IMG/VR virus record: IMGVR_UViG_3300005843_000027
Coordinates: 1 to 31,870 of that record
Length of the DNA stretch: 31,870 nucleotides
Source: a virus
Direction: 5' to 3' (one strand)
A program made the translations under genes and the position numbers. Position 1 is the stretch's first letter, and every line of letters starts with the position of its first letter. The notes beneath the pieces are model-generated. The model saw nothing but the letters and a program-made list of their open reading frames with translations. It ran no database searches and had not been told where the DNA came from. Below, one piece after another: positions 13,806 to 29,506 of the stretch.

Positions 13806-13835
13806 TTGTGCCAGCCCGTACAGGTCTGCTATAGT
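13806..13835 (+). promoter_or_regulatory. Promoter with leader (right arm of divergent pair)
   Basis: TTGTGC (13806-13811), 18-base spacer, TGC-TATAGT (13830-13835). Expected start near 13842, giving a leader of about 32 bases that includes the ribosome site GAGGAGA before the ATG at 13874. Unlike its relatives, this one is not leaderless. Confidence 0.7.
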
Positions 13836-26982: not shown

Positions 26983-27156
26983 TTGACCGAACAGCCCGAT
27001 GACGAGCAGCACGATTGCGTACCTTGTCACGGTGAGGGGGCATTCGTCTGCCGGGATGGATGTCACACGCTGGAATGCGACGAATGCGATGGATCCGGTC
27101 GTCTGTGGGCGGACGATTCCCCGGTGCCGGCCGATGAAGTGAGGTACCTGGGATGA
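26983..27156 (+). CDS. DnaJ-like zinc-finger protein
   Basis: A 57-residue protein, probably starting at the TTG at 26983 just after the previous stop, with AAAGGTG upstream. It has CVPCHGEGAFVC and CDECDGSG: two C-x-x-C-x-G-x-G repeats as in the DnaJ cysteine-rich domain. It is followed directly by the nuclease gene. Likely a small zinc protein; partners unknown. Confidence 0.66.
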   Translation: MTEQPDDEQHDCVPCHGEGAFVCRDGCHTLECDECDGSGRLWADDSPVPADEVRYLG

Positions 27157-28100
27157 CCGTGACCGATGATCTGTTCGAGGATGCCGAGGCCCCGCCGAAA
27201 TACGGGCTCACCCCTGATCAGGCGTACTACAAGTTCCCTCCACCCCCCGGCGTCGAGATCCCCAAGGGTTGGCGCGGCTGGAAGCGGATGACCAACCTGG
27301 TAGGCGCCTTCAGTGATCAGCGCGCTCTTCAGCTCTGGTTGGAGCGCCAGACGCTGTTGGGGCTGCTGGCGAATGACGGCACGGTGTTCGACGAGTTGGC
27401 CGCCAGCGGGGTGGAGCACCTCTCCCCTGATGAGCAGCGGGACATGCTGGAGAAGTTCGCCCAGGCGGCCAGGGATGCCGTGGGGGCGGACGCGGCCGCA
27501 CGGCGGGGCACGGCCAGGCACACCATGCTGGAGACGTACCTGACGCACGGCCGGCAGTCCGGGCACCGCCGCATGCAGATGCAGATGGAGTCCCTGCTGG
27601 AAGCCATGGAGCTGCACGAACTGGACTTCATCCCCGGCTGGAGCGAGCGCAAGGTGTGGCATCCGTCCGGCGGCGGCACCATGGGCACGATGGACGCCCG
27701 GGTGATGTGCCGGCGTACCGGCCAGGTGGGGATCATCGACCTGAAGACCCAGAAGAAATTCTGGACCTATCAGGAGATTTGCGGCCAGCAGTACGGGTAC
27801 GACTCCGCCCCGTGGGCATGGGAGGGTCCGCCGGACGACACCGGTCACTGGGCGGTGAACCCGGGCAATGACCTGCTGGGCGTCTCCGAGGACCTGGCCG
27901 GCAAGCGGGTGGCGCTGCTGGCGCACATGCCGCAGACACCCGGCCCGGAACAGTTGCCTGTTCAGATCCATGAGGTGGACCTGGAGTACGGCAAGAAGGT
28001 GCTCGACACGGCGGCAATGATCACGGAGCTGCGGTCGCGCGGGAAGAGTGTTTCCGCAGGTAGGCGGGTGGGCGCGATTCGTCCGTCATCCGGGGCTTGA
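27153..28100 (+). CDS. PD-(D/E)XK nuclease (RecB/Cas4-like)
   Basis: A 315-residue protein. ARRGTARHTMLETYL (about residues 116-130) matches the RecB/Cas4 motif with Glu127. ER (165-166), GTMDARV with Asp181 and IIDLKTQKKF with Asp196 and Lys198 form the PD-(D/E)XK core, followed by QQYGYDSAPWA (motif IV-like). It probably works with the neighbouring helicases in recombination or host DNA degradation. The stop codon (28098-28100) lies inside the -35 of the following RNA promoter. Confidence 0.88.
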   Translation: MTVTDDLFEDAEAPPKYGLTPDQAYYKFPPPPGVEIPKGWRGWKRMTNLVGAFSDQRALQLWLERQTLLGLLANDGTVFDELAASGVEHLSPDEQRDMLEKFAQAARDAVGADAAARRGTARHTMLETYLTHGRQSGHRRMQMQMESLLEAMELHELDFIPGWSERKVWHPSGGGTMGTMDARVMCRRTGQVGIIDLKTQKKFWTYQEICGQQYGYDSAPWAWEGPPDDTGHWAVNPGNDLLGVSEDLAGKRVALLAHMPQTPGPEQLPVQIHEVDLEYGKKVLDTAAMITELRSRGKSVSAGRRVGAIRPSSGA

Positions 28101-28124
28101 CACCTAGCGTAGGTGCGCTATAGT
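28097..28124 (+). promoter_or_regulatory. Strong promoter of the noncoding RNA region
   Basis: TTGACA (28097-28102), 16-base spacer, GC-TATAGT (-10 at 28119-28124). This is the only member of the family with a perfect consensus -35. The expected start is near 28131. No ORF follows at six bases, which fits an untranslated RNA product. Confidence 0.8.
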
Positions 28125-28143
28125 AGACCTCAGCAACACCGAG

Positions 28144-28183
28144 GGACAGCCAAGACGTTGGATCCTTTACGCGAGGCTCGTCC
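28144..28183 (+). repeat. Structured RNA motif, copy 1
   Basis: Core GACGTTGG-N5-TTACGCGA (28154-28174) closed by GGAC-x-GCC pairing with GGC-xx-GTCC. It lies just after the RNA start. A second copy at 28678-28719 has the same spacing. Confidence 0.65.
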
Positions 28184-28315
28184 TTCACCGACCACCGGCC
28201 CGGACTGCGTATGCGACAGCCCGGTCCGGTGGTCACCCGAGATCAGCCGAACAACAGTCCCCAGGCGGAAGTGCTCTTAGGTAGCGCACCTGTACTGCGG
28301 AGATCTCGGGGCATG

Positions 28316-28388
28316 GCGGGGTTGGTCCAGCAGCACGGACGCCGGTTTTGCGCAGCCGGAGACCCAGGTGCAAATCCTGGCCCCTGCC
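28316..28388 (+). tRNA. tRNA-like segment 1 (73 nt, identity unclear)
   Basis: Cloverleaf-like: acceptor GCGGGG pairs with CCCTGC (one GU, seventh pair mismatched); D-stem GTCC/GGAC; anticodon stem CCGG(T)/(G)CCGG with an eight-base loop TTTGCGCA; T-arm CCAGG-TGCAAAT-CCTGG (28364-28380). No encoded CCA. The loop length prevents a sure anticodon; TTG, TGC or GCG are possible. May be part of the larger RNA. Confidence 0.45.
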
Positions 28389-28465
28389 CGGTTCGCCGAT
28401 CGTGATCGGAGCAACCGGGCGCGTCCCGACAACGCACCCGGGGGTCACGGGAAGGTCGGCGGGGC

Positions 28466-28567
28466 GCCGCTGTCGGGCGGTGCGGCACGGTAGCTCAGTA
28501 GCATCAGCGGCAGCCCTGGCACGGTCGCCCCGGAAAGTGCGGGCGGCGTTCGAATCGCCGACAGGGC
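28466..28567 (+). ncRNA. tRNA-like segment 2, permuted or incomplete
   Basis: D-arm-like TAGCTCAG at 28491-28498 and a perfect T-arm CGGCG-TTCGAAT-CGCCG at 28544-28560, but no normal acceptor stem. GCCCTG (28513-28518) pairs with CAGGGC (28562-28567) around the T-arm, giving a mini-tRNA without D-arm. GCCGCTG/CAGCGGC encloses the D-like part. It may not be a functional tRNA. Confidence 0.4.
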
Positions 28568-28677
28568 GCAGGGCGGAGACGGTTGGTCGGTAACGGGTGA
28601 AGCCTTGAAACAGACCGTGGAACCGACAGGGACGGCGCTTCACACTCTGCCGTGACGGATCGGAGAGACGATCACGA

Positions 28678-28719
28678 GGGGCGGGCGGGACGTTGGGTTT
28701 GTTACGCGATGCCCGTCCC
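28678..28719 (+). repeat. Structured RNA motif, copy 2
   Basis: Core GACGTTGG-N5-TTACGCGA (28689-28709) closed by a perfect 9-bp helix GGGGCGGGC/GCCCGTCCC (one GU). The stem sequence differs from copy 1 while pairing is kept and the core is the same. It ends just before tRNA-like segment 3. Confidence 0.68.
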
Positions 28720-28726
28720 TTACCTG

Positions 28727-28852
28727 TTCCGTGTAGCTCAGTGGACAGAGCACCGCCTACCTGATGGGCTCCCGGGGAGCCCAGATGACGGCCCGGATTG
28801 ATCACCCGGGAAGCGCAGGTGGAGGTCGCCGGTTCGAATCCGGCCACGGACA
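28727..28852 (+). tRNA. tRNA-like segment 3 with about 53-nt insertion in the anticodon loop
   Basis: Acceptor TCCGTG/CACGGA (6 bp, plus a U-C mismatch at 1-72), TA, D-arm GCTC-AGTGGACA-GAGC, anticodon stem CCGCC/GGTGG (28753-28757 with 28818-28822), variable AGGTC, T-arm GCCGG-TTCGAAT-CCGGC (28828-28844). Everything is in canonical spacing except that 60 bases replace the seven-base anticodon loop. The insert forms two hairpins (GGGCTCC/GGAGCCC; CCCGG/CCGGG). No CCA encoded. Confidence 0.55.
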
Positions 28853-28894
28853 CGCCTCCCTGGCGTACGGAGGTACTGAAGTGCGCAAGTCTTG

Positions 28895-28927
28895 CCTGGT
28901 GAGTGTCCTTCGGGGATGTTCACCAGG
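28895..28927 (+). other. UUCG-capped hairpin near the RNA 3' end
   Basis: CCTGGTGA pairs with TCACCAGG and the helix continues inward by weaker pairs to a UUCG tetraloop (28909-28912). No T tract follows, so it is more likely a structural element than an intrinsic terminator. Confidence 0.6.
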
Positions 28928-29053
28928 GGAGCGCGAGGGGCGGGGGAACCCACCATAGTCTGCCCATAGCGGATCACCCCGGTGAAAATCCGGTGCCGCC
29001 CCTCACTCACCCAACCAACCAACAGAACAGCATCGAACGGAGCACAGCAGCAC

Positions 29054-29506
29054 ATGAGCGACGAGTTCACCATCGAGATCGAGGACGCGCAGTCCGACTA
29101 CGTCCGCATCGCCGACCTGGACGGCCGGGACGTGGTGGTCTTCCCCGAGGAGATCGGCAAGGACAAGGGCGACAACGGCGAGATGTACCGCTACCTGAAG
29201 GCGGACGTCATCGTTCTCAACGGATCCACCACCGAACTCATGGACACCATCCCCTACGTGGTGTCCGGCATGCGGATGACCAGCCAGCCCCTGGTGAGCA
29301 ACGGTGAGCGCATGCTGAAAAAGGGCGTGGACAAGCCCTTTGCCGGCCGCATCAACAGCCAAAAGGGCAAGTTCAACAACAAGGCGTACGGGATCACCAC
29401 GTGGGAGCCGGACGCGGCGGTGCGGGCGCTGGCCAACACCGAGGCGGCCAAGTACCTGCGCAACCGCAAGACGGTGGAGGACGCGGATACCAAGGCGTTC
29501 GACTAG
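29054..29506 (+). CDS. Conserved-type phage protein after the RNA region
   Basis: A 150-residue protein from the ATG at 29054 with GGAG upstream, beginning MSDEFTIEIEDAQSDYVRIA. The first half is acidic and beta-rich and the C-terminus is helical. A nucleic-acid-binding role is possible (YGITTWEPDAAVRALANTEA resembles accessory replication proteins), but I do not recognise a family. It is followed by a strong hairpin, suggesting its own transcript. Confidence 0.65.
   Translation: MSDEFTIEIEDAQSDYVRIADLDGRDVVVFPEEIGKDKGDNGEMYRYLKADVIVLNGSTTELMDTIPYVVSGMRMTSQPLVSNGERMLKKGVDKPFAGRINSQKGKFNNKAYGITTWEPDAAVRALANTEAAKYLRNRKTVEDADTKAFD

Follow-up and report, generated by a model that had tools for sequence, protein, structure and literature searches.

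The locus and its neighbours

The window considered here, meaning the whole stretch of DNA that was analysed, is an entire IMG/VR virus record (IMGVR_UViG_3300005843_000027; 31,870 bases) of a tailed phage with HK97-type head genes, a primase and a helicase, a soil-type actinophage as we label it; its sequence is carried at 100% identity by a second contig, L002. On the plus strand, an exonuclease gene (27153-28100; phrog_466) and a downstream gene for a 150-amino-acid product with no assigned family or function (29054-29506; conserved in L008, L242 and others) enclose a gene-free gap at 28101-29053. A promoter, TTGACA-N16-TATAGT, lies at exactly 28097-28124, where an earlier sequence-only reading of this DNA had placed it, and the gene-free region that follows on the same strand (28125-29053; predicted transcript start near 28131) has positional equivalents in relatives. 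We consider it highly probable that 28125-29053 is a structured noncoding RNA locus, and this ~0.9-kb stretch very probably encodes an RNA built from tRNA-shaped pieces together with a hairpin signal, the UGACR-GARAGA element described below. As far as its letters tell, the locus is a real structured RNA of a kind so far uncatalogued. This reading is carried by the structure of the region, the covariation of the element, the replacement of anticodon arms, positional conservation, the shuffling of modules and the lack of a gene, all of which are properties of the sequence itself.

The absence of a credible protein gene between 28131 and 29004, asserted by the earlier reading, holds up. The open reading frames (ORFs) within the gap are without coding bias, their GC content at third codon positions (GC3) being 0.62-0.75 compared with 0.83-0.95 in the real genes of the phage, and a comparison of these ORFs with PHROG gave no match below E 0.1.

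The many helices claimed for the region are reflected in its fold z-score, -2.47 for the whole region (20 shuffles) compared with -1.14 for the neighbouring gene. On the plus strand, a 5' hairpin module at 28139-28189 (z -2.84) contains the first copy of a GACGUUGGxUyyUUACGCGA core (28154-28176) and is followed by a long hairpin at 28190-28234 with 18-nt arms that are 89% complementary; the second copy, GACGUUGG...UUACGCGA, belongs to a hairpin module at 28679-28722 (z -3.23). Towards the 3' side lies a closing hairpin, GAGGGGCGG/CCGCCCCUC, at 28935-29004 (plus strand), in which the predicted closing helix 28935-28943/28996-29004 is present. A further hairpin to which the sequence-only reading had drawn attention as T-loop-like, CCGG-TGAAAAT-CCGG, is borne out in so far as it sits at 28979-28993. 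As separate observations, the core, written as GACGTTGGxTxxxTTACGCGA, occurs twice in the window (28154-28176 and 28689-28711), with a similar sequence, GTTGTTACGCG, in L014 at ~1006-1040, and more GCTATAGT-type promoter-like sites are found in the phage at window positions 13827, 31451 and 31775, two of which directly precede small ORFs.

tRNA-like modules

A sensitive Rfam scan of 28000-29100 gave tRNA matches, none of which was listed by a fast scan at gathering thresholds. The best of them, module 3 (28727-28852, plus strand; 42.7 bits, E 1.7e-7), has a 60-nt insertion at the anticodon loop in the Rfam tRNA alignment, and its unconstrained minimum free energy (MFE) structure is a cloverleaf whose anticodon arm extends into a branched two-hairpin structure (z -2.46). 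Module 1 (28316-28389, plus strand; match at 28316-28388, 35.7 bits, E 1.4e-5) has an 8-nt anticodon loop and the T-loop UGCAAAU, and ARAGORN assigned a four-base anticodon to 28316-28388. Module 2 (28485-28571, plus strand) is degenerate, with a T-arm at 28544-28560 and a GCCCUG/CAGGGC closing stem and no cloverleaf. The three tRNA-like segments of the sequence-only reading thus reduce to two that score as Rfam tRNA and one that is barely recognisable. Only module 3 combines acceptor, D and T arms in a cloverleaf, the MFE structure of module 1 being none. A normal anticodon loop occurs in none of the three, and the 7-nt loop with U33 and a usable anticodon expected of a functional tRNA is missing from module 3, with its branched arm, and from module 1, with its 8-nt loop. 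Judging by this fold, the tRNA body of module 3 cannot decode. Neither ARAGORN nor Rfam found a tmRNA in the window.

Relatives of the phage carry comparable bodies, with abnormal tRNA matches at the same genomic slot in L241, L242 and L247. L242 4367-4450 folds as a perfect cloverleaf (z -4.41) in which the anticodon arm is one continuous 12-bp hairpin with the loop GGCC; L247 4258-4354 is a tRNA-like body with an extended arm (z -3.81), and L241 4296-4468 is one with a larger insert. Reading the 60-nt insertion of module 3 as an intron appears unlikely in view of the equivalent module in L242, which speaks against it because no removable part of that arm would leave an anticodon. That such bodies serve as tRNA scaffolds without decoding appears to us rather probable from their predicted folds. 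A conventional tRNA array is not what the locus presents, since anticodons are abnormal or missing and the conserved element covaries.

Two side observations concern these modules. A variant T-loop, UGCAARU (GGTGCAARTCC), replaces the usual UUCRANY in tRNA-like modules at window 28316-28389, L247 4330-4350, L241 4070-4090 and L271 1595-1620; and a weak second match to the covariance model of the GARAGA element (E 0.04), with an altered loop, falls at window 28786-28812 inside the insert of module 3.

The UGACR-GARAGA hairpin element

The conserved element of the window, UGACGGAUCGGAGAGACGAUCA, covers 22 nt on the plus strand (28653-28674) and has the layout UGACR-stem-GARAGA-stem-A. Its consensus across loci is UGACR-NNNN-GGARAGAC-N'N'N'N'-A, and the window copy has the constants UGAC and GGARAGAC together with a complementary stem; it matched our own covariance model R1 at E 4.3e-7, the E-values of this model being rough. 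Directly 5' of it is a helix, ACGGC/GCCGU (28632-28653, plus strand), of a type that is enriched 5' of the element, and GA precedes this 5' helix in a subset of loci; tandem GA pairs flanking the helix were considered and set aside, as ~20 of 136 loci are insufficient to define such a fold. Separately, two 15-nt segments, 28394-28408 and 28669-28683, are 87% complementary, a possible alternative fold in which the conserved element would pair with an upstream hairpin.

The exact core of the element occurs in nine viral stretches, and a pattern with one pair left free matches at least 120 viral contigs of IMG/VR. Over 149 instances among the matches listed, the free pair was C-G in 105, A-T in 30, T-A in nine, T-G in four and G-T in one. 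Copies found by the pattern are biased to complementary stems at three positions, a bias that is smaller for the free pair and for 27 further copies recovered by scanning with the unpaired constants alone, with no pairing demanded; 19 of these 27 have four of four bases complementary with a different stem sequence, and permuted constants gave 0-1 copies. Among 39 distinct element sequences, both sides change at four of the five pairs, and 95.9% of cells are paired compared with 68.5% after shuffling; stem covariation is 0.746 against 0.187 in shuffled alignments, and the signal is lost when the partner is slid. The element avoids genes: 21 of 136 copies, against 255 of 408 random points, fall in ORFs of at least 100 amino acids. 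It is also often close to tRNA or tRNA-like bodies, one of which lies within 400 nt in 49 of 130 windows compared with 17 of 373 controls, eight times more often. There was no counterpart of the element in Rfam 15 in any locus scanned, and no description of it in the open-access literature, to which our search was limited; one may exist elsewhere.

Copies occur in viral contigs of varying base composition and in cultured phages of Vibrio, Gordonia, Bacillus, Erwinia and Mannheimia, whose records annotate no RNA feature at the element; among the cultured carriers are Vibrio Nahant phages such as 1.285.O, Gordonia phage Sour and Bacillus phage 022DV001. Copies also occur in four of 151 Chloroflexota genomes. 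A core-pattern scan of genome contigs gave six matches, one of which is a real Chloroflexota case with two copies; the other five lack a tRNA-like or noncoding context and were judged to be chance. In 13 Vibrio phages, the element lies in a gene-free region that has a 5' block containing TTGACA and variable tRNA genes between conserved blocks, and that ends in a terminator-like GC hairpin followed by U. Records of Vibrio phages also annotate a 'tRNA-OTHER ???' beside the element. Because these regions share the layout of the window locus, the same design exists in phages that can be grown. Global covariation across the 13 regions yielded just two compensated pairs per block, the sequences being too similar. 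Taken together, a covarying element found across phages of many bacterial phyla implies, on comparative grounds, a conserved partner.

Some element-bearing contigs deserve separate mention. L184, L131, L185, L196, L219 and L143 contain, in series, tRNA-Leu-like bodies whose acceptor and T-arm (TAGTCAGGTGGCGG...GGTTCGAATCCTGTCCTGACTAC) hardly vary, each body having a different insert in place of the anticodon region, and in several of these contigs the bodies start 2-4 nt after a GARAGA hairpin. L113 carries, on its minus strand at 200-1280, three GARAGA hairpins within ~1 kb that has no obvious gene and immediately precedes an apparent single-stranded DNA-binding protein gene.

The same slot in relatives

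The exonuclease is encoded in 15 viral loci, most of which have a gene-free region of 280-1015 nt in the same slot; the window is thus one of about a dozen related phages with an RNA region between the exonuclease gene and a small gene. At the head of these regions, 11 of 12 relatives have a promoter of the GCTATAGT type in the same place; the regions often end in a hairpin, and the CCCCUCA strand of the closing hairpin is positionally conserved in 8 of the 12, where it precedes the next gene by 44-56 nt. What they otherwise have in common are blocks of 40-170 nt with 75-98% identity (72% in one longer pair) at differing positions, with unrelated sequence between them. Across relatives, the RNA region, by this comparison, is a mosaic of shuffled modules in which the promoter and the 3' hairpin are kept. 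The ~875-nt RNA proposed by the sequence-only reading stands as a structured, gene-free region; that it is one folded RNA and not a string of small RNAs processed separately is less secure, since relatives have only short shuffled blocks in common.

Comparison with known RNAs

That reading had also suggested an actinophage relative of GOLLD or ROOL, or else a new class. The GOLLD model (RF02032) gave no match in the window and its relatives (the window and 14 further records), whereas the positive control, Mycobacterium phage Rey, was found at E 3e-53. The ROOL model (RF03087) gave no match either, a weaker test than that for GOLLD in that no control genome matched. In the Rfam scan of 28000-29100, neither family appeared at E 10 and no family besides tRNA was credible. 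The suggested kinship is thus not supported, whereas the structured noncoding RNA with embedded tRNA-like domains is, and of the two suggestions a new class is the better. When phage records were searched at the nucleotide level with the entire region, a 29-nt tRNA T-arm of phage Rey was the sole match, and megablast with the right half of the window gave none.

GOLLD is a phage-borne large RNA of 0.4-0.9 kb with many helices, lying beside or around tRNAs (PMC12286853), and the present locus resembles it in size, phage origin, tRNA association and abundance of helices. It differs in that its tRNA bodies lack anticodons and its modules are shuffled, and the GOLLD stretch of Rey is without the UGACR-GARAGA element. 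ROOL is likewise a large phage RNA near tRNA islands, but its model did not match and no common conserved core was seen. As an aside, upstream of GOLLD in Rey (L256 790-870; 57987-58070) there is a tRNA that looks circularly permuted, its T-arm and 3' acceptor half (GCGGGAGGTCGCCGGTTCGAATCCGGCCACGGG) preceding the 5' acceptor and D-arm half (CCCGTGTAGCTCAG...GAGCGCCCGC), with the halves joined by a short loop.

Another likeness in architecture is the engineered tRNA scaffold for recombinant RNA, in which another RNA replaces the anticodon arm of a tRNA body. Such a scaffold was used in PMC3753655; the phage modules differ from it in being natural, arranged in series and accompanied by a dedicated hairpin element. 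It is established that phage tRNAs can evade tRNA-cleaving defences (PMC10264068, PMC11555353), and altered anticodon loops are known in phage tRNAs (PMC10264068). The window locus is similar to such arrays in that its tRNA bodies form part of an early or intergenic cluster, but here long or branched hairpins replace the anticodon arm, so that decoding is not possible.

Discussion

Our consideration of how this locus works is necessarily a proposal, which as a whole (a promoter-driven array of tRNA-scaffolded modules with the GARAGA element, acting on host factors) we regard as about evenly poised between right and wrong. The locus, lying inside a DNA-recombination gene cluster, would be transcribed from its own promoter, presumably early and together with the recombination genes. 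The transcript would be a string of modules comprising tRNA-shaped bodies, other hairpins, the UGACR-hairpin (GARAGA) element and, before the next gene, the closing GAGGGGC/GCCCCUC hairpin. In the tRNA-shaped bodies the acceptor, D and T arms would be retained, with long or branched hairpins at the anticodon position. RNase P and the tRNA 3'-end enzymes might then recognise these bodies and release stable RNAs displaying the variable arms, in effect natural tRNA scaffolds, with the GARAGA element acting as a module header or as a processing or tertiary-contact signal able to work in hosts of many phyla. Because the modules are replaced rapidly in a slot that itself persists, the products would most likely act against host factors, the simplest case being that of decoys to which tRNA-handling or tRNA-cleaving enzymes are drawn. 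Such a role as a decoy for tRNA enzymes or defences is tentative and, to our mind, rather doubtful.

Several observations weigh against this proposal. Modules 1 and 2 have folds no more stable than those of shuffled sequences (z -0.50 and 0.14, respectively). L003 and L239 have just ~140 nt in the slot. Among the exonuclease-family relatives, the conserved element is present only in the window, L004, L008 and L249; its absence from most of them means that the locus can do without it and that the link between the two is frequent rather than strict. The decoy role is drawn from nothing other than the tempo of change and the phage tRNA literature. Finally, about one-third of the element copies that fall outside ORFs in low-GC contigs are followed by a start codon at 15-35 nt, an arrangement that fits a cis-acting leader equally well.

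The strongest rival is, in fact, that the element acts in cis within a leader, although we consider it unlikely. The region would then be a long untranslated 5' leader of the operon that follows, in which the GARAGA element controls elongation (by put-like antitermination), processing or translation of the following gene or tRNA. Besides the copies close to start codons, this would suit the position of the element, which in Bacteroidetes-type phages precedes tRNA-like bodies by 2-4 nt and in Erwinia phiEt88 follows the antitermination gene; moreover, the 5' helix followed by the hairpin resembles the layout of HK022 put RNA, with its two adjacent hairpins (PMC9378689). The sequence of put differs, however, and HK022 is without the UGACR-GARAGA element, put as a counterpart having been rejected since no copy of the window element occurs in the stretch 22000-40751 of HK022. 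The element is also usually not promoter-proximal; in the window, 520 nt separate it from the promoter and 380 nt from the gene that follows. Antitermination at operon starts was rejected as its role, the position being too variable. Nor would a leader explain the anticodon-less cloverleaves, and several copies of the element per locus, five in L160, argue against it.

A single large folded RNA in the style of GOLLD or ROOL, possibly oligomeric, with the tRNA-like domains as structural parts, appears more improbable still. In addition to the general resemblance noted above (PMC12286853), the GARAGA hairpin could make tertiary contacts among the many helices, and in the Vibrio regions variable tRNA cassettes are flanked by conserved blocks on the 5' and 3' sides. 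Against this, neither model matched, the relatives show short shuffled blocks without a conserved global fold, and covariation outside the element is thin, amounting to the two pairs per Vibrio block.

It is very improbable that the locus is a decaying conventional tRNA cluster, in which tRNA genes acquired by the phage degenerate among functionless spacers. Phage tRNA arrays are common, and two of the three window modules score as tRNA with the other barely recognisable, as decay would have it; yet L242 has intact, compensated acceptor, D and T arms with a perfect replacement hairpin, abnormal tRNA bodies recur at the same slot, the conserved element covaries, and the promoter and 3' hairpin are conserved. 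Equally improbable is a cassette insertion site, in which the hairpin would mark a recombination point for the exchange of RNA cassettes (tRNAs and tRNA-like bodies) between phages: modules are indeed shuffled among relatives, and Vibrio cassettes differ between adjacent elements, one pair of which holds an insert in some phages and abuts in others, but compensated stem variation favours a folded strand over homology, no recombinase was identified, and the element keeps the same orientation upstream of genes.

Returning to the promoter-driven array of tRNA-scaffolded modules, we put forward a broader and more speculative possibility, which we regard as less likely than not: that such arrays constitute an unrecognised locus class across many phyla, in which anticodon-less tRNA scaffolds under a universal UGACR-GARAGA header are read by a common bacterial reader (RNA polymerase, RNase P or the ribosome) and form a rapidly reshuffled anti-host RNA arsenal. 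If the proposal is correct, it would add to the phage noncoding RNAs a class overlooked by annotation pipelines, and the compact signature would permit finding it in existing genomes. The GARAGA hairpin spans phages of Bacteroidetes-, Vibrio-, Bacillus-, Gordonia-, Erwinia- and Chloroflexota-type hosts, which makes the question of what recognises it testable in cultured phages. Natural anticodon-less tRNA scaffolds, if such they are, would represent use by phages of the tRNA fold as a platform for stability and display, and they may bear on the arms race over the targeting of tRNA.
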